Part shown: one piece after another, positions 11,181-33,336 of the stretch | Numbering within the stretch: the stretch's first letter is position 1 | Layout: the number at the start of each line of letters is the position of its first letter | Virus record (IMG/VR): IMGVR_UViG_3300020469_000125 | Location: 1-35,510 of that record | DNA from: a virus | DNA: 35,510 bases | Strand: one strand, 5' to 3' | Notes under the pieces: generated by a model | The model's input: the letters and a program-made list of their open reading frames with translations, nothing else | What the model was told of the DNA's origin: nothing | The model's database searches: none | Position numbers and translations under genes: made by a program

Positions 11181-11186
11181 GTTTTT

Positions 11187-11214
11187 TTTATAGTTTTATT
11201 GTAGTATTTGTCAA
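11187..11214 (-). promoter_or_regulatory. Sigma70-like promoter of the large tail fibre
   Basis: On the minus strand TTGACA (11209-11214), a 16-nt spacer, then TATAAA (11187-11192). Only 6 nt separate the -10 from the ATG at 11180, so transcription should begin at or next to the start codon. It falls in the 41-nt gap between two genes. Confidence 0.75.
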
Positions 11215-11221
11215 CTAGTGG

Positions 11222-11818
11222 TTAAGGCGTAAAATTTAAAGTTCTTATAGAAATAAGTCCGTTATCATTAGCATCTGCACCTCCTTCACCAATCAGTGCT
11301 TCGTATGTGTCACCTTTTTTAACAAAAGCACAAACAAAAGCTCCACCTTGGGTATAGTTGCTACCTTCGGCAAAAGCTACTTGATTTCCGCCTATTTTTA
11401 TTTCAGCATAACCGATTCTTTGTTTATTACTTTGACTAGAGCTGTTGACTTTTCCAGATACAGTTATAAATAAATCTGTTGCAGCTGTTCCAGATTTATC
11501 TTGATCTACATAAGTATTAATACTTCCCACATAAGTTGTAGCTGGACTAAAATTACTTAACGCACTTGCAATATAAGTTCTAATAGCTTTACTTGAAGCA
11601 AATTTGTGATCAGTATCAGTCAAACCGCTGCCAGTGTCTACTGAGGCAGAATCAAAATTACTTACTTGTAGTTGTTGTAGATAATTGTACAGTCCTCCGC
11701 TTGTAACCATATTTGTACTAACTCCATTAGAATTAGGAGAAGACTCTGCGTTTACTACAGTGCTTAAAGCATCTGATATTTCTTGACCTTCAAAAGGTAT
11801 GGTGAATGTTGTGCTCAT
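11222..11818 (-). CDS. Tail-fibre-associated protein
   Basis: 198 residues. The N-terminus TTFTIPFEGQEISDALSTVVN matches the start of the 66-aa protein at 13124-13324 (TFTIPHEADDISNAITKVIN), so the two share an attachment or trimerisation module. The middle (TDTDHKFASSKAIRTYIASAL) resembles the repeated element of phage fibre shafts; the C-terminal 90 residues form a beta-rich domain. Function as a short fibre or adaptor is inferred from this and from position between fibre genes. A consensus promoter lies directly upstream. Confidence 0.65.
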   Translation of the reverse strand: MSTTFTIPFEGQEISDALSTVVNAESSPNSNGVSTNMVTSGGLYNYLQQLQVSNFDSASVDTGSGLTDTDHKFASSKAIRTYIASALSNFSPATTYVGSINTYVDQDKSGTAATDLFITVSGKVNSSSQSNKQRIGYAEIKIGGNQVAFAEGSNYTQGGAFVCAFVKKGDTYEALIGEGGADANDNGLISIRTLNFTP

Positions 11819-11825
11819 TAGTATT

Positions 11826-11854
11826 TATATATTTTTAATCCTGGTTATTGTCAA
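11826..11854 (-). promoter_or_regulatory. Sigma70-like promoter of the 198-aa fibre gene
   Basis: Minus strand TTGACA (11849-11854), whose TGA is the stop codon of the upstream oxygenase-like gene, then a 17-nt spacer and TATATA (11826-11831; a TATAAA with 19-nt spacing is an alternative at 11824-11829). The ATG at 11818 is 7 nt further, implying a leaderless or nearly leaderless message. Confidence 0.65.
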
Positions 11855-12402
11855 GCATAAGCAAAACCTACAGAAACTCTGTCTGAATGTGCACCTACAC
11901 AATGCCAAAACAAATTATCTTGTTTATTGTCTAAACTAAATTGTCGCATTTGCCAACCTGGTTTGTCGTACTTTGTAACAATTTGTTTAGTTTTATTATC
12001 CACATAACGGAAAAAACTTTTATTAGCTTCTTTTGCCCAGACCAAATATAATCTATTCTTATGACCAGAAAAATTGCTGTTTGTATGCCAACCACAATAT
12101 GCTCCAGGTGGGTAATAAAAGAAACCACTTTTAAATACAACTGATTCAACAATGTCTGATAAAATACTTTTTAATTGACGTGTATATTTATTAGATCGAT
12201 ACGATATTCTATTATCATTAGTTGCTAAATACCTAGCCTTGGGTAAATCACCCTCTTCTTGAATTTCTTGTAACCTTTTAGAAGACAAAGTAAAATTTAT
12301 TTTTTTGTTTATGGGAGAGTAAGTATTGTTCATAAGTTCAGAAGAATCTAAGTTAATAAGCAAATCGTCTAACAAAAAAAGTAAATGTTTGTTTTCTATC
12401 AT
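11851..12402 (-). CDS. 2OG-Fe(II) oxygenase-like protein
   Basis: 183 residues. The C-terminal half fits a double-stranded beta-helix dioxygenase: GWHTN (His106, Asn108), RLYLVW, KSFFRYVD, FWHCVGAHSDR (His167, Arg175) and SVGFAY. The first metal motif is HxN instead of the usual HxD/E, which could weaken iron binding or be the norm in this phage subfamily. Such enzymes hydroxylate proline, lysine or nucleic acids; the substrate is unknown. It starts on a TAATG overlap with the 240-aa tail gene and sits among fibre genes, so virion-protein modification is one possibility. Confidence 0.6.
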   Translation of the reverse strand: MIENKHLLFLLDDLLINLDSSELMNNTYSPINKKINFTLSSKRLQEIQEEGDLPKARYLATNDNRISYRSNKYTRQLKSILSDIVESVVFKSGFFYYPPGAYCGWHTNSNFSGHKNRLYLVWAKEANKSFFRYVDNKTKQIVTKYDKPGWQMRQFSLDNKQDNLFWHCVGAHSDRVSVGFAYA

Positions 12403-13124
12403 TAATCAGACATTACATCGTGATGCCACGTTCTAACAGCTATTTTAGCAAAAACTTCTCCTGATGGATCTCCACCATATGTGCTAGCGTTATCTATAAA
12501 CTCGTTTAGTTCAACAAATGCACCACTTACCTTCACAGCTAAAGCCGACGAATCAGACAATACATATCGCCACACTCGTTTAACTGTTCCTGAACTTCCT
12601 ATAATTATACCAGCTTCTATTTTAAATTCGTCCTCATCTTCCACCTGATTATTATCGTTTGTTAAACTGTTGCCAAAATATCCATCACTATTTTTTACAT
12701 AAAAATTAGTTATTGCACCTTCAGAATTTAAAGTAAAAGGTCCCCAAGTTAAGTTTTTAGTTCTTTCTATTGAATTAAAAGTTCCATTAGAGTTAGTATT
12801 TTGTATATAAGGAAAAGCAGTAGTTAGCCAATTTACTATTTGACTACTGCTAGTAAAACCCAAACCACCATTGTATACAAATAAATTTCCATAAGCTGGA
12901 TCCCACAGACCATCTACTCTGGCTGGACCATTCCAATTGTCTGGTCCCTGCGGATGAGGACTTGTTGTATTAGGAAAACCAGAATATAAATCAGCTGGTT
13001 GATCAGGGCTTTTTTGCCAAGCAAGCACTCCATCTATTACTAACTTTTCAACATCTTTGCTAACACCATTGTCTACATAAGTAATTATTTGAGTATCATC
13101 TTTGTCTAAACTATAAGTAGGCAT
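12402..13124 (-). CDS. Tail-associated hypothetical protein
   Basis: 240 residues, beta-rich and acidic. The start (ITYVDNGVSKDVEKLVIDGV) looks like the short strand-turn repeats of tail and fibre proteins; a Pro/Gly/Trp-rich stretch follows at about 45-80. The C-terminal part (EDEFKIEAGIIIGSSGTVKRVWRY) has no motif I recognise. It is coupled on both sides by TAATG overlaps to the 66-aa fibre-module protein and the oxygenase-like gene, so the three are probably co-translated. Confidence 0.55.
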   Translation of the reverse strand: MPTYSLDKDDTQIITYVDNGVSKDVEKLVIDGVLAWQKSPDQPADLYSGFPNTTSPHPQGPDNWNGPARVDGLWDPAYGNLFVYNGGLGFTSSSQIVNWLTTAFPYIQNTNSNGTFNSIERTKNLTWGPFTLNSEGAITNFYVKNSDGYFGNSLTNDNNQVEDEDEFKIEAGIIIGSSGTVKRVWRYVLSDSSALAVKVSGAFVELNEFIDNASTYGGDPSGEVFAKIAVRTWHHDVMSD

Positions 13125-13324
13125 TAGTTAGTAATTGTTAAAGTTTTAGTACTAGCATCATAGTTAATAGTTAATGCACCATCTACATAACTTTTTATAA
13201 CATCAGAATTTACTAACAAAGTATCGTTAGATAAAGTTCCAGTGGTTCTAGTGTTTATAACTTTTGTTATAGCATTAGAAATATCATCTGCTTCATGTGG
13301 TATTGTAAAGGTTGGATTACTCAT
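13124..13324 (-). CDS. 66-aa protein with shared fibre N-terminal module
   Basis: 66 residues. The first 25 (TFTIPHEADDISNAITKVIN) match the N-terminus of the 198-aa protein at 11222-11818. The end (SVDGALTINYDASTKTLTIT-like beta hairpin) resembles fibre shaft termini. It may be an adaptor anchoring a fibre or a truncated paralogue produced by duplication. TAATG overlap with the next gene; 3 nt gap after the DUF6321-like gene. Confidence 0.6.
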   Translation of the reverse strand: MSNPTFTIPHEADDISNAITKVINTRTTGTLSNDTLLVNSDVIKSYVDGALTINYDASTKTLTITN

Positions 13325-13327
13325 AAA

Positions 13328-13567
13328 TTAACATTTCCATTTTCTAAGTGCTAGTGCCTTACGAGTAGGTTTGCCGTTTGGTTTTTTCATTGGTCCCTTA
13401 ACACCAGACATTCTTGCACAAAAAGACTTACGTCGTTTAGCAGCTTTCGAGCCACGTTTAACTTTACCAGTTACAGGAGCTTTAAGATTAGCTCCTTCTT
13501 TGGCTTTAAAATACCTACGACCTGCAGCAGTTAAACCACCAGTTTTACTTTTATGTTCTTTTCTCAT
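13328..13567 (-). CDS. DUF6321-like small basic protein
   Basis: 79 residues, about one third Lys/Arg. GGLTAAGRRYFKAKEG, then AAKRRKSFCARMSG, then KPTRKALALRKWKC match, from memory, the DUF6321 family, found near phage structural genes. Two Cys residues and strong positive charge suggest nucleic-acid or virion binding, but no function is established. ATGA overlap with the upstream DUF5872-like gene. Confidence 0.75.
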   Translation of the reverse strand: MRKEHKSKTGGLTAAGRRYFKAKEGANLKAPVTGKVKRGSKAAKRRKSFCARMSGVKGPMKKPNGKPTRKALALRKWKC

Positions 13568-13797
13568 TTCCTACGATGCTGATATTTAATTCTTTTACTG
13601 CTAGTTTTGTTTCGTTTAAATTTAGCTTTCTCGGATGAAGACATTTCTGATTTAGTTTTTGGAGTTTTTGAACTAACTCGTACGGAGGGTCTACATGCTG
13701 GATAGGCTCGTTTACTTTTGCTTGCTGATCGTCTTCCGCATTCTTTACCTGTCTTGACATCTACCCATTTTTCCTTGAACCATCTTTTTAAGCTCAT
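13564..13797 (-). CDS. DUF5872-like small basic protein
   Basis: 77 residues, highly basic. WFKEKWVDVKTGKECGR, YPACRPSVRV, TPKTKSEMS and RIKYQHRRK match, from memory, the DUF5872 family of phage and environmental proteins. The conserved Cys pair and basic tail could bind metal or nucleic acid. ATGA overlaps on both ends place it in a four-gene basic cassette. Confidence 0.75.
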   Translation of the reverse strand: MSLKRWFKEKWVDVKTGKECGRRSASKSKRAYPACRPSVRVSSKTPKTKSEMSSSEKAKFKRNKTSSKRIKYQHRRK

Positions 13798-13949
13798 GAC
13801 TTTGAGTATCCTTTAGCAGTCATCTTCTTACCCCCTGATTTAATCTGTCCCTTGCAAACACGAACAGCATAACCGTTAGCATAAGCTGACGGATACACTT
13901 TAAATTTACGCTTGGCTGCTGCCTTACCTCTAGCACATAGTTTACCCAT
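13794..13949 (-). CDS. 51-aa basic protein
   Basis: 51 residues (begins MGKLCARGKAAAKRKF, contains VYPSAYANGYAVRVCKG), Lys/Arg-rich with two Cys. The open frame extends further upstream to 14027, but I chose the ATG at 13949 because the conserved part starts there and a 47-aa gene occupies the upstream sequence, overlapping by 8 nt. Function unknown; the family recurs in marine podoviruses beside DUF5872/DUF6321-like genes. Confidence 0.75.
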   Translation of the reverse strand: MGKLCARGKAAAKRKFKVYPSAYANGYAVRVCKGQIKSGGKKMTAKGYSKS

Positions 13950-14085
13950 TTGCCTTCTTTTTCTTTTTAGCAGCTGCAATAATGTCGCCTCTGGTAACTT
14001 TATTCGTGTTACCATACATTCCTGCAAGACGAGACTTTACTTTCTTTTTCGGCTTTTTACTTCCGTGACCATAATGACCTGGCAT
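13942..14085 (-). CDS. 47-aa basic protein
   Basis: 47 residues (begins MPGHYGHGSKKPKKKVKSRL, ends AAAKKKKKANG). A good ribosome site (AAAGGA, plus-strand 14094-14099) lies 8 nt upstream, one of the few clear Shine-Dalgarno sequences in the late arm. Extremely Lys-rich at both ends, so nucleic-acid or envelope binding is plausible but unproven. First gene of the basic cassette. Confidence 0.75.
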   Translation of the reverse strand: MPGHYGHGSKKPKKKVKSRLAGMYGNTNKVTRGDIIAAAKKKKKANG

Positions 14086-14151
14086 AGTTTATTCCTTTCT
14101 TTAGTTTGGTTAAAAACTTATCTTTAGTTTTACATATAAAACACTTCATAA

Positions 14152-14547
14152 TTATTTAATGGTTGATGACCCAAAATAAAAGCCTACAATGGCAAGCACA
14201 GTCTGCCTTATTTCTGGGAGTATGAGATATCCGTTAAGTGTTTGATACTTAACAGTTTTAAAAAATCCAAAGAATCCTGCTGTCTCTTGTCCTACTGTTA
14301 CACCTTCTGGGCTGTGAGCTAGAATAAACGGAGCTATGATAACAGCAAACAATACAGTAATAACAATAAGTCTTCGCACCCACTCACCACCTCGTGATGC
14401 AGCTTGGTTGTGACTTTCATCTGCAGCTTTTTGTTTCTTGAGCATAGCATTTGTAACAGCAGCTTGGTTAGACACAAGTTGCCCAATAAGTTTAAAAAGA
14501 AAACCGCTAGCTCCCCCTCCAAGCATTGCTATTAATTCAGTCGTCAT
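14152..14547 (-). CDS. Putative 3TM holin
   Basis: 131 residues. Membrane segments are visible at about 6-25 (GGGASGFLFKLIGQL), 60-80 (RLIVITVLFAVIIAPFILA) and 112-128 (TVLAIVGFYFGSSTI). The arrangement, including the amphipathic linker and the GFYFGSS ending, resembles the 3TM holin family first defined in gene-transfer agents. It would permeabilise the inner membrane at lysis. It overlaps the small membrane-protein gene by 11 nt; together they form the only lysis-like cassette on the late arm. No endolysin adjoins; the transglycosylase at 3365-3751 is the nearest candidate partner. Confidence 0.7.
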   Translation of the reverse strand: MTTELIAMLGGGASGFLFKLIGQLVSNQAAVTNAMLKKQKAADESHNQAASRGGEWVRRLIVITVLFAVIIAPFILAHSPEGVTVGQETAGFFGFFKTVKYQTLNGYLILPEIRQTVLAIVGFYFGSSTIK

Positions 14548-14704
14548 TTTTTAATTCTCGCGAAACTTTAATAACTGAGAGCACCATAAATGTCAAGGTA
14601 GCCAAACCAACCATAATACTAATAGCCAGGTGTACCTGTTGCAATCCTAAGGTTGCAAAAAAACCTGATACTCCAATTGATCCTCTAGTTACTACTTCTT
14701 GCAT
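14537..14704 (-). CDS. 55-aa membrane protein (holin/antiholin candidate)
   Basis: 55 residues (begins MQEVVTRGSIGVSGFF, ends SVIKVSRELKNDD). Residues about 24-46 (VHLAISIMVGLATLTFMVL) form one strong transmembrane helix; a weaker hydrophobic stretch lies at 9-22. The charged C-terminus resembles small class II holins. It follows a consensus promoter and overlaps the 3TM holin start, so dual start or holin-antiholin pairing is possible. Identity rests on topology and position only. Confidence 0.65.
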   Translation of the reverse strand: MQEVVTRGSIGVSGFFATLGLQQVHLAISIMVGLATLTFMVLSVIKVSRELKNDD

Positions 14705-14713
14705 CACAAATTT

Positions 14714-14741
14714 GTTATATATATATCATCTTGAGTGTCAA
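14714..14741 (-). promoter_or_regulatory. Sigma70-like promoter of the lysis cassette
   Basis: Minus strand TTGACA (14736-14741), 16-nt spacer, TATAAC (14714-14719). The ATG of the 55-aa membrane gene is 9 nt further, leaving a leader of only two or three bases. It begins just after the stop of the large internal virion gene. Confidence 0.7.
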
Positions 14742-14744
14742 TCA

Positions 14745-17700
14745 CTAAAACCGCTTTTGAGGCTCGTCAACTCTGTCAAGCATGTCTTGCTGAATATTTA
14801 ACATTGTTTCTCCAGCTACGAAACCAACGGCTTGTTCAAGCACTGGTCCAAGCACTGGATACTGTTGCCCTGTAAACGGCTTAAAAGCCTTGTCAAAGTC
14901 TCCTGAAAGAAGATCGTACCCTTGACCCACAACAGGAGAAAAAAGCTCTTCTGGACCAAATATAGCTGCATCTACGCCTAATTCTCCGATTGTTAACAAT
15001 CCTGACTGTTTTAATATTCGTAAAAAATCAAATTTAGTCATATCTAAAGGATTAATTGGTTCTTTAGCTTTGGACAAATCTTTCATAATTGTAGTTAAAT
15101 AAGCAAAAGCAATTGCCATCCCTATGTACGTTATCAAATGAGACATTTTAAATGCGTTATGTTTGGCATCTCCTGTGTAACCATTTAAGAAACGTCTATA
15201 AACAACACGAGCCATACCCAACATAAATGAGCTATACTGAAAAGCAGTTCGTGCTGCTTCACCAGAATAAGTGCCAGCTTCTAACCCAAGACGAGACAAA
15301 GCTTGTGCACCTACGTCAGGCTCTATAACAGCTTCTTTCATATACTGAAGATAAAAAGCTGAAAGCTTAGCTTGTAACTTAGCGTTAGTTACTGAAGATG
15401 GAGCTAATCTGTTTATACCATCTACTGTAGTTTCTACATGTTTTGCTAAACGTTTTATTTCAGCATCTGTAAATTGATAAGATTTTAATCGTTCTAAAAG
15501 AACTTTATTAGCCCCCTTAGTCACAGCATCAGCTAAAGACAAAGATATAATATCTATTGTTATTTGCTGATGAGTTGCTGTAATTCGGTTCAATCCGTTA
15601 ATTTCAAAAACAAGTTGATTTGCAAAACCCATTTTGCCACCATCAATTGACTCACCAGTAACAACTTTTTGAGCTATTGTTCGTGTTAACAAATCAAAAC
15701 CAGCTCCTTGTGCTCTATACCAAGCAGCCATTTCTTTATTTTTTCCTCTAAACTGTGTGTTAATAGCGTTCTTATAACTGTTTATAAATGTGCTAAAATT
15801 AAAATCTGCATTTAAATATTGAAGTGTTGAAATCATCAAAGGAACATCAGACATTGCTGACATACCTGACCCAGCCAAATAAAGAATATTAGAAGCCTGA
15901 CGAACTTTTTGAAAATTTCTAGCTATATTTACATCAACAGGATTATCTAGCATTCCTGTAATTTGTTTAGCTGTCATGTTAAAAGTTTTAATACCAGGAG
16001 TACTTTGAAGTTGTTGATCAGCAACTACACTCATCAAAGTATTATATGGATCATGACCTAAGGACTTTATTAAGGCTATTTTTTCAGATCGATTTCTTAT
16101 TTGATCTAAGAGCAAACGACCTAAATTCTTAAAATTACTAAATTTTGTTAATGCATCTATTTGATGTTCAGGCTTATAAGCTATTTTAGAACTTTTTCTA
16201 AGCCCTCCAGCAATTGATTTATTTTGCGTTGCAGCATCTTCTAAATCAAACTTGTTATTTATTATTGCTAAATACAAATTTTTTATAAAACCATTTATTT
16301 CAAAATCTACTACGGTTTTTGTTCCAGCAACATCAGTTGCAAACATTACACCGCCATGCAATTGACTTGTTTTAGATGCATCAATTACATTTATCATATA
16401 ATCATAAAAGCCTTTTTGACCCATGCTTTTTACGACTAAAGGATCATATTTAATACTGTAACCTGTAAATGTTTTGCTTTCTCGTATGTTAACACCTAAT
16501 CTATTAATCTCTGCTAACTGACCACGAGTTATTGTTTTAATAACATCAACTAAACCTTTAAAATCATCTATGTTTTCTAATATAAAAGGTTTTCCATCTC
16601 TTATAGCTTCCATTATAGCTTGGTGAAAAACTACAGAAGCTTTTTCTAAATTTTCTCCATAAGCTTTCTTAGAATTTTCAGAAGGAAAATACTTATTAAA
16701 ATAACTAGACATATACTTGCTAGGATCTTCACCTAAAAACACCTCTAACAAATCTTTGTTAACTAAATATTCTATAATAGGAGATTGGTCTTTAACAACC
16801 TGAGCATTTATTTGTTTGTGAACAGAGGCTTCAAGTTTTACATCGCTTCGTAAACTTCCGTCTAAAAGAGTTTTAAATTGCTTAACTTTATTTTGTTTAG
16901 TCTTAATGCTATCTAGTTTAGCATTTAGTTCTGATTGAACAGTTTTGTTGTGTATAAGTCTTACCACCATTGCTCTATCTTCTTCAGATAAATACTCAGA
17001 CACTTTACCTATTTTCTCTGTTTTGCTTAGATTATTATTTAACAGAATAGAGCCCACTCTTGATAAAACTTCTGGTGGAGCATTTTTTTCAAAAAGTGCG
17101 TTTAAAGCTTCTGTATTGCTTATAGTAGTATTTTTTCTTAAAGCTTTTATAACAGAAGCTTTCCTTGAAGCAGATCCTTGTAAGTTTCGTAAAATAACAT
17201 CTACAACTGGAACAATGTGTCCCAAACCTTTTTCTTCTAAAGAGCTTACTAAAGATGCTATGTAATCTCTTCGCCCTGCTTCACCTAAACTTTGTTTAGG
17301 AAGGTTTAATAACATTGGGACTACAGTTTCATCTCCAACTAAGTCTGCTATACGTTCTTCTAAATATTTTATAGTGTTAGCATTTTGTCTTTCTAATTCT
17401 GAAACACGACCTGCTAAATTAGGGTTTTCATAAGAAGGTTTGTATGTTGCCTTATAATAGGATGCTGCTGTTAAATTTTCAGAGTTAGTTATGCCTTGTT
17501 GTAGCTTAGCTAGTCTACCTTGGAAACTAGCATCGTTCTTCATGCCTTGAAGTATACTCTGAACAGACTTTGCTATGTTCTGTGATTTGTTTAGATTGTT
17601 AATCTCTTCTGAAAACTCTGGTCTTTTTATTCTTAAAGACTCTGCTATCTTCTCAAACAAACCTTTTAGCAAAGCAATAAACTTCTGATAAAGATTTGGT

Positions 17701-19625
17701 TTTTGTTTTTTAAGATTATCGTAAAACTCTTGTCGAGTAACATACCATTCCATAAGTAAAGGAACTTTCTCTACTTCAACTGTAGAAACATACCCTGTGT
17801 CTCCAATTACAGCAATTCTGTCTTTGTAAATATACTCAACCCAGGGAAATTTTTCTAAGTCAAACGCAAAAGCATTATCCTCTAAGTAACCAACTCTTTT
17901 TATTTCCTTAATTAATATATCATTTAACTCAGGATTTTTTACAATAAAATTTTCAAGGTCTTCATATACCTTAGGTTGTAAATCTTGCAGTTGATGAAAT
18001 AGTTCATGCACGTTAGTAGTTATTATCTTACCAGCACCAAGACCTCCTAAGTCAGGCTGTGCTCCTTCGAACATAGTGTATACATCAGTAATCTGAATGC
18101 CCAATTTACCAAAAGTAACTTTACCTTGTTGAGTTTTTGTTGGGTTCAACAAAGCTTGCTCTAACTTAAAATCTTCTACCTTAACAGGAACAGCTTGTTC
18201 ACCAACAAATATTTGATTTATCAAAGAATTTACATCTTGAACTATAAATTTATACTCTTCTTCTTGACCCTTTATAAGACGAGCTTGTGCCACAGTTGCT
18301 TTAAATTCTTCTCGTGAAGAAGGAACTCTTGAGTAAGCATCTAAATCTGTAGCTATACCAGGAACATAACCAACATCAGGAGTAACATTACGTTCTGCTC
18401 GGTTTTGACGAGCTCTCTTACTTTTTAAATTTAAACCCTGCCTTTCTAAAAAACTAATATCTGCTTTAGTTAAACCAGCATCATTACCTTCTAATATAGC
18501 TTTTTGAATACGAGCCATCTGAGTTCTAAACTCTAGTTCATTTTTAACAACTGACCCATCTTTAGCTCTATACTGTTTTGCTAAAGCTTTATTTAATTCT
18601 ACAAGTAAAACATGAGTTTCTTGTTCAGCTAAGATTTTGCCCATGTCTTTAACATCTGCATCTGTAATTTTATTAGCAGAGATTTTTTTCTCAGCAATTG
18701 CTTTTAAACGAGGATTTGAATTTATGAGAGCTCTTACATGAGGAGTAGCATAGTCACTAATAGTTTGAAACACTTCTAAAACTTTAAAACCGCCAGCTTC
18801 TTTTCGAATAATTGGCTTAACGTTAGGATCAACAGGAAAAACCATTTCTTTATATGTGCCGTCCATTGCACGTCTATAATCTCTAGCTTGGCGTTGATAC
18901 GTTCTTACTTTAGAAAAATTACGATAATTTCTAGGTACGTTAATACCTGTCATAAGTCCACCAAAAGCTACAAAACCCATAGCATGGTTAGCTGCCATTT
19001 GTCCTGTGTAGTCGTTTACGCCCACACTATCAATAGCTTTTGCATAAGCGAACTCTGTGCCTACTGAAAGAGCAGCATAATTTTGAAGCTGACCTTTTGC
19101 AGAATGAGCTGCAGCTATAAGAGGTTTTCCAGCTTGAGCTGCTAACCTACTGCTAGCAAAAGAAGCTCTACTTATTCCTGCAATTCCTCCTGAACCTCCT
19201 GAAGCGAGCATTAAAAGAACGTTAGCAGGATCAACAAAACCTGTTCCCAAAGATCCAACAAAATTAGATATACTTCTATCTTGTCCTTGAGCTTGAAGAG
19301 AATAAGCTCTTTGAGACGCTGCTTTTCTTATTCTAAAATCTAGTTGAGCTTCTGTTTCTCCTTCTTTTTGTTCAAGACCTAATTGAGAAGCATAAGAATT
19401 ATTAAACACGTCATCAGTAACTGCAACATCATCATCTTTAAAAAAATGATAATTAATAAAATCTGCAGCAGCTTGAGTTAAACCATGACTCCAAGTATTT
19501 TGAATGTTAGCAATATTAGAACCAACAAATCCATAGTCGCTTCCTGAATACCGTCTACCAACTAAATCTTCATAAGATTTAGGCTGTATTAAATTGTTAG
19601 AAACTGTTGGCTCTGTCTGTATCAC
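14745..19625 (-). CDS. Large internal virion protein (gp16-like) with HExxH zincin motif
   Basis: 1626 residues. Position as the last and largest of three internal-protein genes, an N-terminal Gly/Ala-rich segment (GFVDPANVLLMLASGG) and a C-terminal 400 residues with amphipathic helices (e.g. HLITYIGMAIAFAYLTT) fit the T7 gp16 ejection protein. Unlike T7 gp16 I see no transglycosylase motif. Instead residues 540-544 read HELFH, with hydrophobic NV before it, a zincin HExxH site; LLMEWYV (Glu626) is a possible third ligand. This resembles the metallopeptidase of phage polyvalent proteins. Start is GTG directly after the upstream TAA; no nearby ATG exists. Likely role: DNA ejection plus proteolysis. 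Confidence 0.75.
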   Translation of the reverse strand: MIQTEPTVSNNLIQPKSYEDLVGRRYSGSDYGFVGSNIANIQNTWSHGLTQAAADFINYHFFKDDDVAVTDDVFNNSYASQLGLEQKEGETEAQLDFRIRKAASQRAYSLQAQGQDRSISNFVGSLGTGFVDPANVLLMLASGGSGGIAGISRASFASSRLAAQAGKPLIAAAHSAKGQLQNYAALSVGTEFAYAKAIDSVGVNDYTGQMAANHAMGFVAFGGLMTGINVPRNYRNFSKVRTYQRQARDYRRAMDGTYKEMVFPVDPNVKPIIRKEAGGFKVLEVFQTISDYATPHVRALINSNPRLKAIAEKKISANKITDADVKDMGKILAEQETHVLLVELNKALAKQYRAKDGSVVKNELEFRTQMARIQKAILEGNDAGLTKADISFLERQGLNLKSKRARQNRAERNVTPDVGYVPGIATDLDAYSRVPSSREEFKATVAQARLIKGQEEEYKFIVQDVNSLINQIFVGEQAVPVKVEDFKLEQALLNPTKTQQGKVTFGKLGIQITDVYTMFEGAQPDLGGLGAGKIITTNVHELFHQLQDLQPKVYEDLENFIVKNPELNDILIKEIKRVGYLEDNAFAFDLEKFPWVEYIYKDRIAVIGDTGYVSTVEVEKVPLLMEWYVTRQEFYDNLKKQKPNLYQKFIALLKGLFEKIAESLRIKRPEFSEEINNLNKSQNIAKSVQSILQGMKNDASFQGRLAKLQQGITNSENLTAASYYKATYKPSYENPNLAGRVSELERQNANTIKYLEERIADLVGDETVVPMLLNLPKQSLGEAGRRDYIASLVSSLEEKGLGHIVPVVDVILRNLQGSASRKASVIKALRKNTTISNTEALNALFEKNAPPEVLSRVGSILLNNNLSKTEKIGKVSEYLSEEDRAMVVRLIHNKTVQSELNAKLDSIKTKQNKVKQFKTLLDGSLRSDVKLEASVHKQINAQVVKDQSPIIEYLVNKDLLEVFLGEDPSKYMSSYFNKYFPSENSKKAYGENLEKASVVFHQAIMEAIRDGKPFILENIDDFKGLVDVIKTITRGQLAEINRLGVNIRESKTFTGYSIKYDPLVVKSMGQKGFYDYMINVIDASKTSQLHGGVMFATDVAGTKTVVDFEINGFIKNLYLAIINNKFDLEDAATQNKSIAGGLRKSSKIAYKPEHQIDALTKFSNFKNLGRLLLDQIRNRSEKIALIKSLGHDPYNTLMSVVADQQLQSTPGIKTFNMTAKQITGMLDNPVDVNIARNFQKVRQASNILYLAGSGMSAMSDVPLMISTLQYLNADFNFSTFINSYKNAINTQFRGKNKEMAAWYRAQGAGFDLLTRTIAQKVVTGESIDGGKMGFANQLVFEINGLNRITATHQQITIDIISLSLADAVTKGANKVLLERLKSYQFTDAEIKRLAKHVETTVDGINRLAPSSVTNAKLQAKLSAFYLQYMKEAVIEPDVGAQALSRLGLEAGTYSGEAARTAFQYSSFMLGMARVVYRRFLNGYTGDAKHNAFKMSHLITYIGMAIAFAYLTTIMKDLSKAKEPINPLDMTKFDFLRILKQSGLLTIGELGVDAAIFGPEELFSPVVGQGYDLLSGDFDKAFKPFTGQQYPVLGPVLEQAVGFVAGETMLNIQQDMLDRVDEPQKRF

Positions 19626-22496: not shown

Positions 22497-22498
22497 TA

Positions 22499-26172: not shown

Positions 26173-26779
26173 AGTTACAATGTGCTTGAATGAACGAAGA
26201 ACTTCCGTCTGTTATATATCTCTGAGCAGGAGATGATCTACCTTCAAGAACTCTTGCTCGCCTTAAAGCCAAAGTATATTGTTTAAATAAAATTTCATGT
26301 CTATTTTCAGAACCAGACAACTCAATAGTCATATTCTGTGCCATGTGTAGTGTTAACAAACGAGTAAGAAAAGCTGGGAGCGTGGTGGCTGCAGAAGATA
26401 GATCTGGTACATAAGTATAATAAATATCAACCACAGGGTCGTTGCAGTGAAACAATCCATTATAAAAACTATAATCTGTTATATTATAATGATCTGTAGG
26501 GTGACATATTTTTAGAAGAATATTAAAATCACTTGGTAGGTTGTAATAATACTGATACGGCTCAGTAGTGTTTGCAGTAGAGTTTCCAGCAGTTAACTCT
26601 ACAGACTTCGTATTGTAGCTAAATATATTATCACCAAACACCTCGGTGACAGCTTGTGAAAAAGCACGAGTAGCTATCTCGTAAGTGCTGCTTGTTTCGT
26701 CATCAGCATCAATATGAAAACTGCCAACCATTCGAAGGGCAGAATTAAGTATTTTAAGTTTTGTTGCTTCAGTAGGCAT
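26159..26779 (-). CDS. Tail tubular protein A (gp11-like adaptor)
   Basis: 206 residues from MPTEATKLKILNSALRMVG. This opening helix, the LPSDFNILLKI strand and the late helical stretch LPAFLTRLLTLHMAQNM are typical of T7 gp11 adaptors, which join portal to nozzle. An upstream in-frame start at 26818 would run through the terminator hairpin and encode unconvincing residues, so I use the ATG at 26779. No separate ribosome site is visible; the G run of the hairpin is 14 nt upstream. Confidence 0.8.
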   Translation of the reverse strand: MPTEATKLKILNSALRMVGSFHIDADDETSSTYEIATRAFSQAVTEVFGDNIFSYNTKSVELTAGNSTANTTEPYQYYYNLPSDFNILLKICHPTDHYNITDYSFYNGLFHCNDPVVDIYYTYVPDLSSAATTLPAFLTRLLTLHMAQNMTIELSGSENRHEILFKQYTLALRRARVLEGRSSPAQRYITDGSSSFIQAHCNYGKV

Positions 26780-26780
26780 T

Positions 26781-26814
26781 ATAAAAAAGAGCACCCCCCT
26801 GCCGAAGCAGGGGG
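26781..26814 (-). terminator. Strong intrinsic terminator downstream of capsid
   Basis: Minus-strand stem of 8 bp (26795-26802 with 26807-26814, CCCCCTGC/GCAGGGGG) closed by a cUUCGg tetraloop and followed by TGCTC and six T. It lies between the capsid stop and the adaptor ATG, the position of the T-phi terminator in T7. Confidence 0.9.
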
Positions 26815-26834
26815 ACAACTCAGTTATAGATTAG

Positions 26835-27932
26835 TTACTCTACGCAACGGATTTCGCCAGAAACTTCACCCCACATACGAGAGGCATCAGCTGCCATCTT
26901 GAAGTATAGGTAAGGAATATTTTTCTTAGCAGGAACACGCCACATGTCTCCCTTAAGAGCTGTACCAATAGACATCTTAAGAGCTTTTGGAGTAGCAACG
27001 ATACAACGACGCTCGCTGCCAGCAGAGATAGGAAGTCTTTCACAAACAATGAAGCGGAAGCCCATGAATGTTACGACTGTACCTTCTACTAGTGCCTTGC
27101 GTACTGCAAAGTCAGAGCTAACAACTTCTGTTATACCAAGTAGATCATCAATCTGCTTTGATGTAACAAAACAGTTAACAACTTCATCTTGGTTAATAGC
27201 GTTAAGCTTTAACATTGTACTACGAGCTCCACGAAGTTTCGCAAGAGATAGTCCAGTATCTGAGGCAGTGCCAGAAGCAGAACCATCATAACCTGAACCA
27301 ATTGAGAATCCTTCAGTGTTAGAAGTACTATCGACAGTATAGAGCGTCTCAGAACCAGTGATAAGATTACCTCCAGAAGTAGATTGTCCTGCTCCTACAG
27401 TATCAGCACCAACCTCAATGATTGTAGCTGTGTCAGAAGCACCAACAAAAGTCTTCGTTACTCCACCGTTTTTACCAGTGTAAGCAGATCCGAAGAAACT
27501 GTCAATAATAATATCATCGATCTTACGTTTACCAGAAGCAAGAAGTGCTTGTGTATAAGCGTTCATTGGATCTGTGATAACACGCTTAAGGTCTTTTTCG
27601 TCGATATACTTACCGAGTTCATAGTCCTTAAGTCCAATGCGACGTCTGTCGTGTTCGATTTCCCCAAACGGATTGTCTCCGTAACGACTTACATCTTCAC
27701 TCATTACTGAAGCGATGCCAACACGGTCAAAGTATTGGTACTCTTCAGATTGAGATTCAGATTCGAAATACGGCTGCAGCTTAGATTCAGTTTGTTGGAA
27801 CGCTTGTTCAAAACCTTCACGGAAAGCAGCAACGTATGATGTTTCAATGTTGTTCTCAGCGGATGTACTTGTAGCGAGGCTATTTGTTGCATCGTACGAG
27901 TATCCTTGAGATCCTACAGTTGATAATGCCAT
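26835..27932 (-). CDS. Major capsid protein
   Basis: 365 residues. FDRVGIASVMSEDVSRYGDNPF, then EHDRRRIGLKDYELGKYIDE and DPMNAYTQALLASGKRKIDDII match the phage capsid-like family (HK97 fold) of podoviruses; the C-terminal block LKMSIGTALKGDMWRVPAKK is also typical. It lies directly after the scaffold gene, flanked by terminators at 28050-28086 and 26781-26814, so it is probably expressed largely on its own, fitting the need for hundreds of copies. The leader is long (about 120 nt after the upstream terminator) with AAGAAAG before the ATG. Confidence 0.9.
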   Translation of the reverse strand: MALSTVGSQGYSYDATNSLATSTSAENNIETSYVAAFREGFEQAFQQTESKLQPYFESESQSEEYQYFDRVGIASVMSEDVSRYGDNPFGEIEHDRRRIGLKDYELGKYIDEKDLKRVITDPMNAYTQALLASGKRKIDDIIIDSFFGSAYTGKNGGVTKTFVGASDTATIIEVGADTVGAGQSTSGGNLITGSETLYTVDSTSNTEGFSIGSGYDGSASGTASDTGLSLAKLRGARSTMLKLNAINQDEVVNCFVTSKQIDDLLGITEVVSSDFAVRKALVEGTVVTFMGFRFIVCERLPISAGSERRCIVATPKALKMSIGTALKGDMWRVPAKKNIPYLYFKMAADASRMWGEVSGEIRCVE

Positions 27933-28049
27933 AATAATTTACTTTCTTTTTATAATTAGAATTTGAATGAATAGTTTGCGTTGAGCTACCCTTTCGGACT
28001 CTTCTAGTTATAACGTCAACCAACGGCTTTCCTAAGCTGTGTTAGGACC
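27933..28049 (-). promoter_or_regulatory. Capsid gene leader, probable promoter region
   Basis: Untranslated stretch between the scaffold terminator and the capsid ATG. It contains a perfect 6-bp hairpin (28030-28035 with 28042-28047, loop of 6), a TATAAC at 28006-28011 with only a poor -35 17 nt upstream, a TTGACG at 28014-28019 without a matching -10, and a GUCC-GAAA-GGGU mini-hairpin near 27988-28000. Because a terminator precedes it, a promoter or processing site is expected here, but I cannot place it firmly. Confidence 0.4.
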
Positions 28050-28086
28050 TAAAAAAAGGCTACCCCAACAGTAATCGGAATAGCCT
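28050..28086 (-). terminator. Intrinsic terminator between scaffold and capsid
   Basis: On the minus strand a 10-bp stem with two G-U pairs (AGGCTATTCC at 28077-28086 with GGGGTAGCCT at 28057-28066), a 10-nt loop and then seven T. Confidence 0.85.
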
Positions 28087-28116
28087 AAATTTTATTAGAT
28101 GTCAAGCAAGTTTACA

Positions 28117-29031
28117 CTAATTAACTTTTGATGGGTACATCTTCGCATATAAATCAGCTCTCTCTTGCAAAATTTGCTGACGTTTATTTCTGTCTGGTAT
28201 ACTTAGTGTAGACGGATTACTCATAATTAAATCATTATGTTGAGCATCAAGCCCAGCTAACTCTGATCTAATATTATGAATTGTTTCAGTTGCAAAGCCA
28301 GATGTAGGATTATTTCCTGACAAAGGCAAAGTATCTCCAGAAACTTCTGAAATTCTATGGAAAAGTTTTAATACAGCAGGATGATTTGCAATTTCACCGT
28401 TTGTTTCAACTAAATCTTTTAGCTCAGGAATCTCAGAAGTTAACGCTTGGTAAGCTTCGTTTGCTTGCCTTACGTTATGATCAAAGTTATCGCCCCACTC
28501 TGTTTTCATAGCAGTTCGATATTCAACGACTTGTTTTTGCTGAGCCTCTGAATCTAAAGTGCTTCCTTCAATTCCCATTTTAATATATTGTTCATGCAAC
28601 ATATCAAACTGAGTTTGAGTAAGACCCATTTTTCCTGCAAAATCAACAAGCTCTTGCTCAGCACCTTCAGGAAGTGTTGGCATTTCTTCAATACCTTCAA
28701 CAGTGTCTGGTATTTCATACTCATCATTTGCTGGGCGAAGCTGACTATAAAAATTGTTATAGTCTTTTTCCGTCCAATCATCTTGAGGCAGTTGTAATCG
28801 TTTTGCACCTAACGCTTTTTGAGCGTTGACTAACTGATCAGCTAAAGACTCAAACGATTTTGTATTTTGCAAAGTATCGTTTGTCTTTAAATGGTCAGGC
28901 AAACCATCTAAAAAATCTGTATACTGAGGAGCAATTCCTTCTGTAGAAACAGGTTCTTGAGGTTGTTCAGAAACATCAGAGCCTAAAACGCCCCCTGTTT
29001 CTTCTGTTGTTATGACTTCTTCTTCAGACAT
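28117..29031 (-). CDS. Capsid assembly scaffold protein (gp9-like)
   Basis: 304 residues, strongly acidic at the start (SEEEVITTEETGG) and helical with a basic C-terminal helix (RNKRQQILQERADLYAKMYP) of the type that binds coat subunits in tailed-phage scaffolds. The blocks LTQTQFDMLHEQYI and GDNFDHNVRQANEAY are common in T7-like scaffolds. It lies directly upstream of the capsid gene and overlaps the Bbp19-like gene by 8 nt. A TTGACA just past its stop (28100-28105) has no convincing -10. Confidence 0.85.
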   Translation of the reverse strand: MSEEEVITTEETGGVLGSDVSEQPQEPVSTEGIAPQYTDFLDGLPDHLKTNDTLQNTKSFESLADQLVNAQKALGAKRLQLPQDDWTEKDYNNFYSQLRPANDEYEIPDTVEGIEEMPTLPEGAEQELVDFAGKMGLTQTQFDMLHEQYIKMGIEGSTLDSEAQQKQVVEYRTAMKTEWGDNFDHNVRQANEAYQALTSEIPELKDLVETNGEIANHPAVLKLFHRISEVSGDTLPLSGNNPTSGFATETIHNIRSELAGLDAQHNDLIMSNPSTLSIPDRNKRQQILQERADLYAKMYPSKVN

Positions 29032-29290
29032 TTTCTTCTTCTATTTTATTTATTAGTATTTGAGGATCATCTTGACCCATCAAGGATAAAAAACTCATAG
29101 CTAATCGTCTACGACCTTCGCACTCTCTTAACTTATCTACATCACTATGAAACACAGGCTTAGTAACATGACACTCTTTTAAAAGAATTTTAAAAAATCG
29201 TTTGCCTGGGTCGGTCTTTAGTAAAGACAATAAGTCATCTCTAAGTTGAGCTTTTTCACGCAACTTTAAAACACTTCTTACTTTGTCCAT
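29024..29290 (-). CDS. Bbp19-like phage protein
   Basis: 88 residues. GKRFFKILLKECHV, then CEGRRRLAMSFLSLM and DDPQ match the small Bbp19 family that commonly lies between portal and scaffold genes in T7-like podoviruses. Role unknown; a head-assembly accessory is the usual inference. Starts on the last base of the portal stop and overlaps the scaffold start. Confidence 0.75.
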   Translation of the reverse strand: MDKVRSVLKLREKAQLRDDLLSLLKTDPGKRFFKILLKECHVTKPVFHSDVDKLRECEGRRRLAMSFLSLMGQDDPQILINKIEEENV

Positions 29291-30915
29291 TATATATTTA
29301 ATAAATTACCAACACCTTCAGGATCTGTTTGCTTAGCTTGTGCAATATCTTTTATTGCTCCAGTGATTTGAGGTGCAGATTGAATTTGTTGTTGTTCTTC
29401 AGCTTGCTCAGCTTGTTCGGCTCTCATAGCATTAACTTCTTCTTGAGATTTAACAACTGATGGGTCTATGTTTCTATACTTAGCGTAGCTTTCAAATAAT
29501 TTAGTTTCGTTTAAAGATTGAAGAATTGTAGGTTCAACTTGAGCTAAAGGTGCTATGTCTTTCATAAACGCACTTATGTCAGCTAGCCTTGTTGCAAACT
29601 GTGACTGAGAACTAGGGCTAGAGTATGCTATCTCTAAACTAGCTCCATCTAAACTAGAAGGTCTTTCTGGTAATTCATTTTGTCTGCCTAACAATTCAAA
29701 GGTTGCTTCAATAGCAGGACTTAAATACTCTGACTCCATTCTGTTAAGAAGAGGAGCAAGTTGATTTAACATTTGTCCTCTAGTATCCTGAATCTCTAAC
29801 ACAGACTGACGTTCTTTTTTCTCTTGTCTAATAATTTGATCTACAAAGAAAGAACGATTAACAGACTCACGATACATACGAATCATTTCCATTACATACT
29901 GTGGCTGATTACCTGCCAATATAGGAGAAGGCTTTTCAGTTCCTGGCTCGTGGAACATAATCTGACGAGAACCATACTTCATTGGAAGCATAATGCTGTC
30001 TTCTTCTGCAGTAAGAGTTGGAAAGTTTAAATACTCAGCAGAAGTTAAAGCCTCTTTAACCATCTTATTAAGTGCTCGTATCTGAGACAAACAAGAAAAA
30101 GCTGGACCACGTCCGTAAATTTCATCTGCTAGCTTAGACCAACGTGGTACTAGAAATGTAAAATAACTAGAGCCACTTTCTAAAATTGGTTCTGGCATTC
30201 TTGGACACCAATACACGACTGTATACTTACGCCCTTTTCCTACTCGACTACCTTTCTTAGCAGCTTTGTCTGTGTTAGGAAAGATAGAATAAATTAACTC
30301 ATACTTGCTGTGAACAGAATCAGTAGGATTGAAACCTCGCATGTCTTCAATGCCAGGGAACGACTGCATTAACTGCCTAGCAGTTTTATAACACCTGTAA
30401 TGAACAGTATCTACCGTACCGTACTGGTCTGTGTCAAAAAACACATCTGCTAAAGGTCGAGATCTAAAGTTAACAACTCCTTCAACTTCTGATATCTGAA
30501 CTGGAGATGTTCCATAAGACCCTATATCTAAAAAACATTCATGCGAAGCAGAATAAAATTGTGACTGTGGTAGTGAGAATTCGTGTAATATTCTGTCTTC
30601 GCATGCTTGTAAAAACGATAACTCTTCAGAGTTAAGTAATCCTTGAGGTTTATTCTGAACCCTTAAATAAAACCATCTGTCTGATTTAGGAATTAAATTA
30701 GAAGCTAACCCATTAGCAAACATCTGGTTGCACCACACAGCTGTGTCATCGTACAAGATTTTAGAACCATCTTCTTGTTTACTTGTAAAACCGTGATCAA
30801 ACTTATTTGAATTAGGACGCACATATCTTTGAGAATCCTTAAACATACTATCAAGATTAGATCTTAATAGCTTAAGTTCCTCATAACGTTCAGCTAGTGC
30901 GGTAGTCCCACTCAT
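29290..30915 (-). CDS. Portal protein (gp8-like head-to-tail connector)
   Basis: 541 residues (T7 gp8 is 536). FDHGFTSKQEDGSKILYDDTAVWCN, ASNLIPKSDRWFYLR, EIYGRGPAFSCLSQIRALNKM and QTRGQMLNQLAPLLNR-like C-terminal blocks are the head-to-tail connecting protein family. It forms the dodecameric DNA channel. Gln-rich C-terminal tail (EEQQQIQ). It begins immediately after the stop of the polyproline gene, with no gap. Confidence 0.9.
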   Translation of the reverse strand: MSGTTALAERYEELKLLRSNLDSMFKDSQRYVRPNSNKFDHGFTSKQEDGSKILYDDTAVWCNQMFANGLASNLIPKSDRWFYLRVQNKPQGLLNSEELSFLQACEDRILHEFSLPQSQFYSASHECFLDIGSYGTSPVQISEVEGVVNFRSRPLADVFFDTDQYGTVDTVHYRCYKTARQLMQSFPGIEDMRGFNPTDSVHSKYELIYSIFPNTDKAAKKGSRVGKGRKYTVVYWCPRMPEPILESGSSYFTFLVPRWSKLADEIYGRGPAFSCLSQIRALNKMVKEALTSAEYLNFPTLTAEEDSIMLPMKYGSRQIMFHEPGTEKPSPILAGNQPQYVMEMIRMYRESVNRSFFVDQIIRQEKKERQSVLEIQDTRGQMLNQLAPLLNRMESEYLSPAIEATFELLGRQNELPERPSSLDGASLEIAYSSPSSQSQFATRLADISAFMKDIAPLAQVEPTILQSLNETKLFESYAKYRNIDPSVVKSQEEVNAMRAEQAEQAEEQQQIQSAPQITGAIKDIAQAKQTDPEGVGNLLNI

Positions 30916-31146
30916 CTAATATAACTTGCCACCAGAACCCAAGGTTCTTTTTGTTTGCGTTCTCTTTGTGCCTGAAGCTCGAGCACCTCCAAAACTTCCC
31001 AACATTCCTGAAAGACCTCCTGATAAAGTTCTGCTTGGTGCTTTAGCAGCAGTTATAGGTCTACGAGCTACAGGAGCAGGAGGAGGTGGTGGAGCTGCTG
31101 GAGGTGGAGGTGGTGGAGGAGGCGGTGGTACTTTAGGTCGTCTCAT
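30916..31146 (-). CDS. 76-aa polyproline protein
   Basis: Starts MRRPKV followed by ten consecutive Pro, two Ala, five Pro, APVARRP, then a Gly/Ser/Arg/Lys-rich tail (LSGMLGSFGGARASG, KRTQTKRTL). Proline codons are mixed CCA/CCG/CCT, so the run is maintained at protein level rather than being a simple DNA repeat. Such runs stall ribosomes and need EF-P. Its stop touches the portal ATG, so stalling could affect portal synthesis. Its start overlaps the upstream gene by 14 nt. Small Gly/Arg-rich proteins at this place occur in podoviruses; function unknown. Confidence 0.65.
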   Translation of the reverse strand: MRRPKVPPPPPPPPPPAAPPPPPAPVARRPITAAKAPSRTLSGGLSGMLGSFGGARASGTKRTQTKRTLGSGGKLY

Positions 31147-31510
31147 AATATTTAGCTATGCGTGTTAGTTTATCCCAACTGTACATCTTGGGCTTATCTA
31201 TGTTGTGATAACGGCAAAAGCTAACTCTGTCAAGTCTAAATGGAGCAAGTTCAAGAAACGTAGCTATTGTTTTCTTAGGTAGACGATGAGAAGCGTACGC
31301 AACATCCCAATACTTTCCTTCAGTATCTTCTAGCACTTCTCCTAAAAGTATATAGTTTTTACTCATAAATATATACTTATCTTCATCATGAACATTTATG
31401 TATTCATCTAACAAAGCCCAAAAGTCTTCCCCCCAAGAATTATATAAACACACAGCTTCTTCTACAAGAGGAAGTCTGTAGTGGCTACCAATTAATTGCC
31501 GAGATTTCAT
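31133..31510 (-). CDS. Hypothetical protein between terminase and portal
   Basis: 125 residues. The segment YILLGEVLEDTEGKYWDVAYASHRLPKKTIATFLEL, given here as its first and last parts YILLGEVLE and KKTIATFLEL, and PFRLDRVSFCRYH near the end look like a small alpha/beta enzyme fold and faintly recall GNAT-like virion proteins of T7 (gp13 type), but no acetyl-CoA loop is clear. Unknown function. It overlaps the TerL gene by 26 nt. Confidence 0.6.
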   Translation of the reverse strand: MKSRQLIGSHYRLPLVEEAVCLYNSWGEDFWALLDEYINVHDEDKYIFMSKNYILLGEVLEDTEGKYWDVAYASHRLPKKTIATFLELAPFRLDRVSFCRYHNIDKPKMYSWDKLTRIAKYYETT

Positions 31511-32798
31511 ACTGGTGCTTTTGCTTTGCTTTGTTTAGAGTTGGTTGCTTTAACGCTACAGCTAAAGTTCTAAATGCATCAGCTCCGTGAGAGTTTGAAT
31601 CATGGACAGGAGATTTTCTAAAAACACCTCTGCTAGTATCGAACTCTTTATGATATCCTTTCAACGCTTCAATGCCACGATAGCAATCGTTCTTAGCAAA
31701 CCAACACTTAGGCAACATTGCACGAACTGCTTCAATGCCATCGATTATTGGTATCTTTCTAACAGTTGTAAATTTTAATCCCATACTTCGTGCAATCTCT
31801 AGCCTACTCTTCCCTGTTCCAAGTTCTCTAACTTTGATATCATGCGGTGCATAATGCTTGCCGTAGACAATGTCTTTTTGCACTGCCCATCTTTGCAACT
31901 CACGAGCATAGTGAGGCAATCCCTCTCCACTATTCTCGTAGTAGTTAAGAATTCTTATTTCATTTCTGTAAATTTGTACAAACCAAATAGTTGTAGCATC
32001 ATCCATTCCCAAGTCCCAGGCTGTGTGCACTGGTAAATTAGTCTCTACTTCTATGTTATCTACTATTCTTTTTTCACGATATAGTTTGTTTATCTGATCA
32101 CCGTAGTAAGCTCCCTCTACAGGAACTTTAAACGAGCACATATACTCAGACTGAAAACGTGCTTCGTTGTTCAGTTCATTACGAGCTGTGCGAAGTTCTT
32201 CTGGTGCAATTGCTTTTGTGTCTTTAACAGACAAATGGCTACTATACCACTTGCCGTCGCTTTGTGCTTTTAACAAGATCTTGTAAAAGTGATTCTCACC
32301 ACGAGGCGTTCCGTTGAATAACGCCCATCCTCCATTCTCTGCAAGGATGGGGTTAATCAACTGCCATGCACTCGGATCTGATATACTATACTCTGAAAAT
32401 ACACACCCTACAGGATTTGCTCCCACCATTTTATCAGGGTCGTCTGAGCCCATAAGCTGTACGACGCTACCGTTCTTTAGGTGGATACGCATCTCCTGTT
32501 CGCTTTTTTTCTCTACAAGCTCTCTAGGAAAATAATTTATAAATTTTTTGCCCTCTCCTGTCATACCATTCCAAACAATCCGACGTGCTTGGTTGGCGTA
32601 AGGTAGGACATACCAATAAGTGCCAACACGTTGCATAGCTTTAATAGCAACTATGTTCAGGCAGGTAAGATCCTTGCCAGCTCTTCGATGCCACGCAACA
32701 ACTGCCCTCAACCCACGTTTAGATTGAGACATATACTTTAGCAATGGTAATTGGTAAGCTCTAGGTTGCCACCCCTGAGCTGGTATTTGTACGTTCAT
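31485..32798 (-). CDS. Terminase large subunit (TerL)
   Basis: 437 residues. ATPase: WHRRAGKDLT (Lys42) as Walker A, GCVFSEYSI with Glu136 as Walker B, and the coupling motif ALFNGTPRG. Nuclease: AWDLGMDDATTIWF (Asp262) and, near the C-terminus, HDSNSHGADAFR. It cuts and pumps DNA into the prohead through the portal. The size is short for T7 gp19 (586 residues) and the sequence looks closer to other podoviral terminases. Overlaps the TerS reading frame by 38 nt. Confidence 0.9.
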   Translation of the reverse strand: MNVQIPAQGWQPRAYQLPLLKYMSQSKRGLRAVVAWHRRAGKDLTCLNIVAIKAMQRVGTYWYVLPYANQARRIVWNGMTGEGKKFINYFPRELVEKKSEQEMRIHLKNGSVVQLMGSDDPDKMVGANPVGCVFSEYSISDPSAWQLINPILAENGGWALFNGTPRGENHFYKILLKAQSDGKWYSSHLSVKDTKAIAPEELRTARNELNNEARFQSEYMCSFKVPVEGAYYGDQINKLYREKRIVDNIEVETNLPVHTAWDLGMDDATTIWFVQIYRNEIRILNYYENSGEGLPHYARELQRWAVQKDIVYGKHYAPHDIKVRELGTGKSRLEIARSMGLKFTTVRKIPIIDGIEAVRAMLPKCWFAKNDCYRGIEALKGYHKEFDTSRGVFRKSPVHDSNSHGADAFRTLAVALKQPTLNKAKQKHQYEISAINW

Positions 32799-33300
32799 TC
32801 TTATCTTGGTCGCTTAAAAATTCGTCATATTCACCACCACTCACATCTATTATATCATCCTTCATCACCTTACTATAGTCTACGGTCAATATCTTCATCT
32901 CACCTTGAACCGTCGCTTGGACATCGACGCTTTTTAATTTTGGCTGTGTGTAGCTTGCTAGCTCTTTCCATAAGGCTATCTTATCAGGTTTCTTTATTTC
33001 TGGATCTTGCGTATACTCCAGAAGTTGCTCAATAGGATTAATCCCACGCTCAGCGAACATTGCGAGTAGTGCCTTCCTCTGCTCAGCTGGCGTGGGAGCT
33101 TTAGACATCATATCTAAAAATTCTTTCTTTACATTCAACTGTGCGTCTACTTTCTTCAACTCTTTCTGAGCTTCTTTCATGTCTTCTTCAGCTTTCATTT
33201 TGCGACGACGACACCGTGATCGCTTAGCTGATTGCTGCTTAATCACCTGTTTTGGCTTACCTGCTGCGTAGGTTCTACCGTCTGGCTTCTTATCTGGCAC
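32761..33300 (-). CDS. Terminase small subunit-like protein (TerS)
   Basis: 179 residues from a GTG at 33300. Lys/Arg-rich N-terminus (KRSRCRRRK), a coiled coil (EEDMKEAQKELKKVDAQLN) and a helical middle (LWKELASYTQPKLKS), ending acidic; with its place before TerL this fits a DNA-recognising small terminase. The frame is open to another GTG at 33369, but those residues lie in the iteron repeats, and a TTGACA-N17-CATAAG promoter predicts transcription starting at the 33300 GTG, which also gives a natural N-terminus (VPDKKPDGRTY). ATGs at 33327 or further downstream remain possible starts. Confidence 0.65.
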   Translation of the reverse strand: MPDKKPDGRTYAAGKPKQVIKQQSAKRSRCRRRKMKAEEDMKEAQKELKKVDAQLNVKKEFLDMMSKAPTPAEQRKALLAMFAERGINPIEQLLEYTQDPEIKKPDKIALWKELASYTQPKLKSVDVQATVQGEMKILTVDYSKVMKDDIIDVSGGEYDEFLSDQDKNERTNTSSGVAT

Positions 33301-33307
33301 TGTGGCA

Positions 33308-33336
33308 CTTATGCACTCAATAATCATTTGTGTCAA
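33308..33336 (-). promoter_or_regulatory. Probable late promoter before TerS
   Basis: Minus strand TTGACA (33331-33336), 17-nt spacer, CATAAG (33308-33313), then 7 nt to the GTG at 33300. The -10 is imperfect, but spacing and leaderless geometry match the three better late promoters. Confidence 0.5.

Follow-up and report, generated by a model that had tools for sequence, protein, structure and literature searches.

Conserved promoter-like elements set close to late gene starts point to leaderless messages in a family of T7-like marine phages

The window analysed here, that is the whole stretch of 35,510 bases making up one virus record, carries T7-like structural genes on its minus strand, among them those for the terminase large subunit (TerL), portal, capsid and tail proteins. 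Five of its 35 curated gene starts are preceded by exact TTGACA at a distance of 34–37 nt (sites A–E, Table 1), which, counted from the first base of the hexamer to the start codon, amounts to 34, 36, 37, 36 and 36 nt, respectively (37 nt to ATG and 34 nt to GTG at site C). The gene behind site A encodes a fibre-like protein of 1,110 aa, and the predicted +1 falls at or next to the A of its ATG. At site B the hexamer overlaps the TGA stop of the upstream gene and serves a gene of 198 aa, and at site C, heading the distal late genes, it begins 3 nt past the stop of a 1,626-aa virion gene; here ATG is a more likely start than GTG, because homologues begin at the ATG residue. Site D heads the late genes and precedes a gene taken as putative terS on the basis of its position before terL (it has no database name); a long non-coding region lies upstream of it. 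The hexamer of site E belongs to the 3′-terminal part of the fibre gene and its −10 (CAAACT) is poor; in the relatives L082 and L165 a small ORF resembling its 29-aa ORF is preceded by TTGACA-N16-TATAAC-N7 directly before ATG (distance 35 in L165). Sites A, B, C and E belong to a dense co-directional gene array, and at sites A–D a TATA-like −10 stands approximately 6–12 nt before the start codon, which is the mark of TA-led genes. An earlier note on this DNA had listed TTGACA at 11209, 11849 and 14736 followed after 16–17 nt by TATAAA, TATATA or TATAAC, a weaker fourth copy at 33331 (−10 CATAAG) equally distant from its GTG, and a hexamer repeating the −35 spacing ahead of the 29-aa ORF at 7843; all of these elements were found in place.

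Table 1. Promoter-like elements and adjoining features of the window
Feature	Position	Strand	Composition
Site A	11180..11214	-	TTGACA 11214-11209, N16, TATAAA 11192-11187, AAAAAC, ATG 11180
Site B	11818..11854	-	TTGACA 11854-11849, N17, TATATA 11831-11826, 7 nt, ATG 11818
Site C	14704..14741	-	TTGACA 14741-14736, N16, TATAAC 14719-14714, 6 nt, GTG 14707/ATG 14704
Site D	33300..33336	-	TTGACA 33336-33331, N17, CATAAG 33313-33308, TGCCACA, GTG 33300
Site E	7843..7879	-	TTGACA 7879-7874, 36 nt before ATG 7843 of 29-aa ORF
Predicted capsid promoter in terminator	28057..28105	-	TTGACA 28105-28100, N17, TATTCC 28082-28077; -10 within 5′ arm of terminator hairpin (28086-28057 plus T-run)
Conserved capsid 5′ leader	27933..28050	-	Downstream of terminator; 80% mean column identity, 18 sequences
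Three GTGTG direct repeats	33337..33372	-	Directly upstream of terS -35, ~11 and 9 nt spacing

Among named isolates the closest are pelagiphages of the HTVC010P type, whose homology is distant (identity of about 37% for TerL and about 30% for the capsid protein), and the TerL of many uncultured marine relatives is 76–92% identical to that of the window. The single-subunit RNA polymerase (PF00940), the gene that defines T7-type phages (Autographiviridae), had no match in the window, whose record may be incomplete, or in the relatives, the T7 control being positive. A T7-like gene set devoid of RNA polymerase is also what these phages share with the HTVC010P type, and with regard to the earlier note, which held a shared leaderless architecture in a T7-like phage with no visible polymerase to be unusual, it should be said that the polymerase-less state is usual there. 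The fibre gene used as a query yielded no relatives, and the TerL search of a genome collection gave no match. Naming the host via a 131-aa ORF was given up, as MAG contigs labelled Rhodobacteraceae, Rickettsiales, Sneathiella, Opitutae and Porticoccaceae were too inconsistent; relatives of this ORF come largely from other phages, in which the 56-aa gene as a rule directly follows the preceding stop, and phages sharing the 131-aa gene were kept as a control only.

In 4,000 dinucleotide shuffles the number of starts with a comparably placed hexamer was 0, 1 or 2 (3750, 244 and 6 cases, respectively) and never three or more. The hexamer by itself shows no excess in the window (19 copies against approximately 31 expected), therefore it is the placement that constitutes the unusual feature. 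Hexamers with at most two mismatches to TATAAT occupy 29% of equivalent offsets, which makes the −10 alone weak evidence, and generic promoter scans revealed no excess over shuffles; the generic promoter consensus is uninformative here, and the signal is carried by placement.

Relatives found via TerL supplied 72 terS loci, which were reduced to 50 unique promoter sequences (window included) that share ancestry and so are not independent. TTGACA is exact in 48 of the 50, and in 48 of the 50 the start codon lies 35–37 nt downstream of it; over all 50 sequences this codon is GTG in 41, ATG in 8 and TTG in 1. Within the 30 sequences having a distance of 36, TTGACA retains 1.65–2.0 bits per base and the cATA core of the −10, spaced by 17 nt, 0.7–1.35 bits, the spacer has drifted to a near-random state (mostly <0.5 bits), and A precedes the start codon in 24 of the 30. 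The −10 itself (cATAnn) is a weak match to TATAAT. An in-frame stop intervenes between the −35 and the start in 21 of the 50 sequences, so that translation of these cannot start further upstream. Differences among 14 aligned terS N-terminal sequences are distributed over codon positions as 95/95/218, with the third-position excess present from codon 2, and upstream of the start as 469/439/359 with no such excess. The terS start codon is thus well supported, because codon periodicity begins there and in-frame stops are present upstream; such support for the placement of the start codon covers terS only.

The second recurrent position is the distal junction behind the virion gene of about 1,600 aa. 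Ten such junctions were compared, one from the window and nine from relatives; among these are two pairs of records resembling each other, and one record contributes two copies. In all ten TTGACA begins at the virion-gene stop or only a few bases from it (in L168 the hexamer and the end of the upstream gene overlap), and the genes that follow differ, having 55, 578–596, 95, 227, 91, 94 and 179 aa. The distances from TTGACA to the start are 37, 38, 38, 34, 39, 37, 36, 49, 55 and 55 nt, hence seven junctions fall into the range of 34–39 nt compatible with leaderless spacing, and the 49–55 nt found in the other three imply leaders of approximately 13–19 nt, which means that a leaderless start is not obligatory at this junction. 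Leaders of 4–14 nt were not observed in Lactococcus cremoris (PMC10986495), and the gap between 39 and 49 nt is compatible with such avoidance, the sample of ten junctions being too small to claim it. Single cases of TTGACA occur elsewhere, namely behind terL in L133 (37 nt) and also in L179 and L192; further hexamers at 32–33 nt in relatives proved to be inside coding sequence and were set aside.

Family-wide surveys, in which gene starts were called mechanically, rank TTGACA first among all hexamers at −33 to −38 of 303 non-redundant gap genes. Across 404 family gap genes its occurrence peaks at 35–37 nt (17 against 0–4 in each other bin), and that of TATAAT-like hexamers at 8–13 nt before start codons. 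Both peaks are missing in other phages sharing the 131-aa gene and in HTVC010P and HTVC034P, and inspection of MW202510, HTVC010P and HTVC034P revealed no such gap promoters. The scan of relatives for conserved −35/−10 pairs, which the earlier note had proposed as a check, thus turned out in its favour at terS (48/50) and at seven of ten distal junctions as well as through these family-specific peaks. As in sigma-70-type promoters, the hexamers are 16–18 nt apart and their spacing is conserved; with a degenerate −10 at terS and capsid they are regarded as predicted promoters.

Among long family genes 7.8% are preceded by SD-like motifs, which is below the level of control positions, as opposed to 52% in HTVC010P and 67% in HTVC034P; this and the lack of a TTGACA peak before starts are the features by which HTVC010P-type pelagiphages differ from the family. 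The statement of the earlier note that the genes in question are devoid of Shine-Dalgarno sites is true, but it applies to nearly every gene of this phage and holds family-wide, and therefore is not diagnostic of leaderlessness: the absence of SD is a family trait that permits leaderless starts and does not show them. Family gene starts have A at −3 in 59% and at −6 in 52%, resembling the Kozak-like start context of Flavobacterium johnsoniae (PMC6847099). Since most transcripts of this bacterium are leadered, the A-rich context provides no argument for leaderlessness.

The capsid gene is arranged differently. In the window and relatives L083–L157 its predicted promoter is conserved, with TTGACA-N17 in 25 of 26 unique sequences, and, mostly 161–176 nt before the capsid start, the −10 (TAYYnn) is embedded in the 5′ arm of a terminator hairpin that is itself conserved; in the window TTGACA is approximately 170 nt from this start. 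RNA initiated here would lack the 5′ arm and escape the terminator, while read-through RNA from upstream would be stopped. The leader between terminator and capsid gene is strongly conserved (Table 1); an Rfam search of the window gave no match, and the consensus fold of the leader consists of small stems with no pair changed on both sides. Immediately past the capsid gene, a strong terminator-like hairpin was noted at 26792–26817 (minus strand). One and the same −35 geometry appears to serve both leaderless and leadered late messages of the family. The shared leaderless architecture postulated by the earlier note is therefore common but not universal, as the capsid message and those of three distal junctions are predicted to be leadered.

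Upstream of terS, at least two GTGT[GC]-type repeats are present in 40 of the 50 sequences, and those of the window (Table 1) are possible activator or initiator sites. Combined with the weak −10, the repeats suggest an activator acting at terS. In the window (33337–33610) and relatives, GTGTGA direct repeats spaced by 9–11 nt are located close upstream of the terS −35, the unit reading GTGTCA or GTGTCT in other phages with copies altered in concert; more TTCACAC copies are scattered further upstream. These repeats may be sites for an activator or iterons of an origin. In some relatives TTGACAC / GTGTCAAC units form clusters near terS (L162 3572–3670; L131 620–640, plus strand, and its minus strand) that look like iterons containing the −35 hexamer, and repeated CGTTAAGAATC-type units occupy a non-coding stretch at 34040–34310 of the window (minus strand).

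Taken together, we consider it likely that host sigma-70-type promoters abutting ORFs produce leaderless or near-leaderless late mRNAs in a host that makes no use of SD. A sigma-70-type holoenzyme of the host would recognize TTGACA, the 16–17 nt spacer and a TATAAT-like hexamer, and with the −10 ending 6–9 nt before the start codon RNA would begin on the codon or no more than about 3 nt from it. Promoters of this kind would stand in front of the late genes (terS) and of the distal late genes that follow the ~1,600-aa virion gene, and also at further late junctions. Ribosomes would start at the 5′-terminal codon, with longer messages as a possible additional source of translation at sites A–C and E. 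The proposal of the earlier note that transcription starts at the start codon or a few bases from it gains support from the conserved spacing; the predicted starts follow the usual sigma-70 spacing rule, from which the host polymerase could deviate by a few bases. Since the host is seemingly without SD use, a leader would be dispensable, so that the promoter fits into a gap of 30–40 nt, often beginning from the previous stop codon.

Other explanations were weighed against this one. Chance matches in AT-rich gaps would agree with the abundance of TATA-like hexamers (29% of offsets) and with generic scans showing no excess over shuffles, yet none of the 4,000 shuffles reached three starts and conservation in relatives already contradicts such an origin, whose probability is next to nil. 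Scarcely more credible is that start codons were mis-called and true starts reside downstream behind ordinary leaders: the prevalence of GTG at terS (41/50), a weaker leaderless start in E. coli, would speak for it, but the third-position excess sets in from codon 2 and the start is aligned across relatives as GTG or ATG. The TTGACA box may also be imagined as the target of some other protein (a regulator, a replication initiator or the terminase) instead of a promoter element, given that GTGTG-type direct repeats near terS resemble protein sites and the terS −10 is weak; however, a −10-like sequence follows the box after 16–17 nt at terS, before the capsid gene, at the distal junction and next to scattered late genes, and this recurring spacing fits a sigma-70 promoter, making such a role very unlikely.

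More weight, though it is still improbable, is to be given to the idea that promoters are real and RNAs start near the codons but translation of the first gene relies mainly on longer read-through RNAs, the leaderless RNA being a by-product of genome compaction that serves downstream genes. The location of sites A, B, C and E among densely packed co-directional genes and the leaders tolerated at three of ten distal junctions agree with this, yet terS, having no close upstream gene but a long non-coding region, exhibits the tightest spacing (35–37 nt in 48/50). Returning to host promoters abutting ORFs, an extended version can be outlined tentatively, and as a whole it is rather doubtful: leaderless late-gene starts (largely GUG at terS) would be the norm family-wide in an SD-less host, a repeat-bound activator would work on the weak −10, the capsid promoter hidden in the terminator would yield a leadered message, and those of terS and the distal genes would be leaderless.

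The sites described form a testable conserved set of predicted phage leaderless starts, one of them mostly GUG-initiated, in genes (and presumably a host) without Shine-Dalgarno sequences. If mapped, they would reveal how SD-less hosts initiate on 5′-terminal codons and would supply a simple rule (TTGACA, 35–37 nt, start codon) for annotating late promoters of abundant uncultured marine phages.

Several known systems are close to the arrangement proposed. Cluster O mycobacteriophages likewise have promoters of the host main-sigma type and predicted leaderless mRNAs, one of them at the structural operon; their tails are long and their hosts are Actinobacteria, a phylum in which leaderless genes abound, whereas here a podophage family with a presumably SD-less host is concerned and spacing was tested for conservation at terS and the distal junction. 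The leaderless mRNA of lambda cI is produced from a sigma-70 promoter with +1 on the AUG, but this is a single repressor gene of a temperate phage, and here late genes are served. Phage transcripts are often leaderless according to a remark in PMC5312081. In Deinococcus-Thermus a −10 motif 6–7 bp before the ORF is the promoter of leaderless mRNA (PMC12340547), a spacing equal to that seen here; for those cellular genes a −10-adjacent pattern was described, while in the phage family the exact −35 TTGACA is strongly conserved. In the survey of Zheng et al. (2011; PMC3160421), leaderless (TA-led) genes are recognized by a TATA-like signal lying about 10 bp before the start codon; the phage sites fit this class, although that survey dealt with cellular genomes. 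Leaderless promoters are known from scattered phages and bacteria, but seldom have they been demonstrated as a trait conserved throughout a phage family; what is new here is that the arrangement is conserved across the family, that terS mostly starts with GTG and that the setting lacks SD sites.
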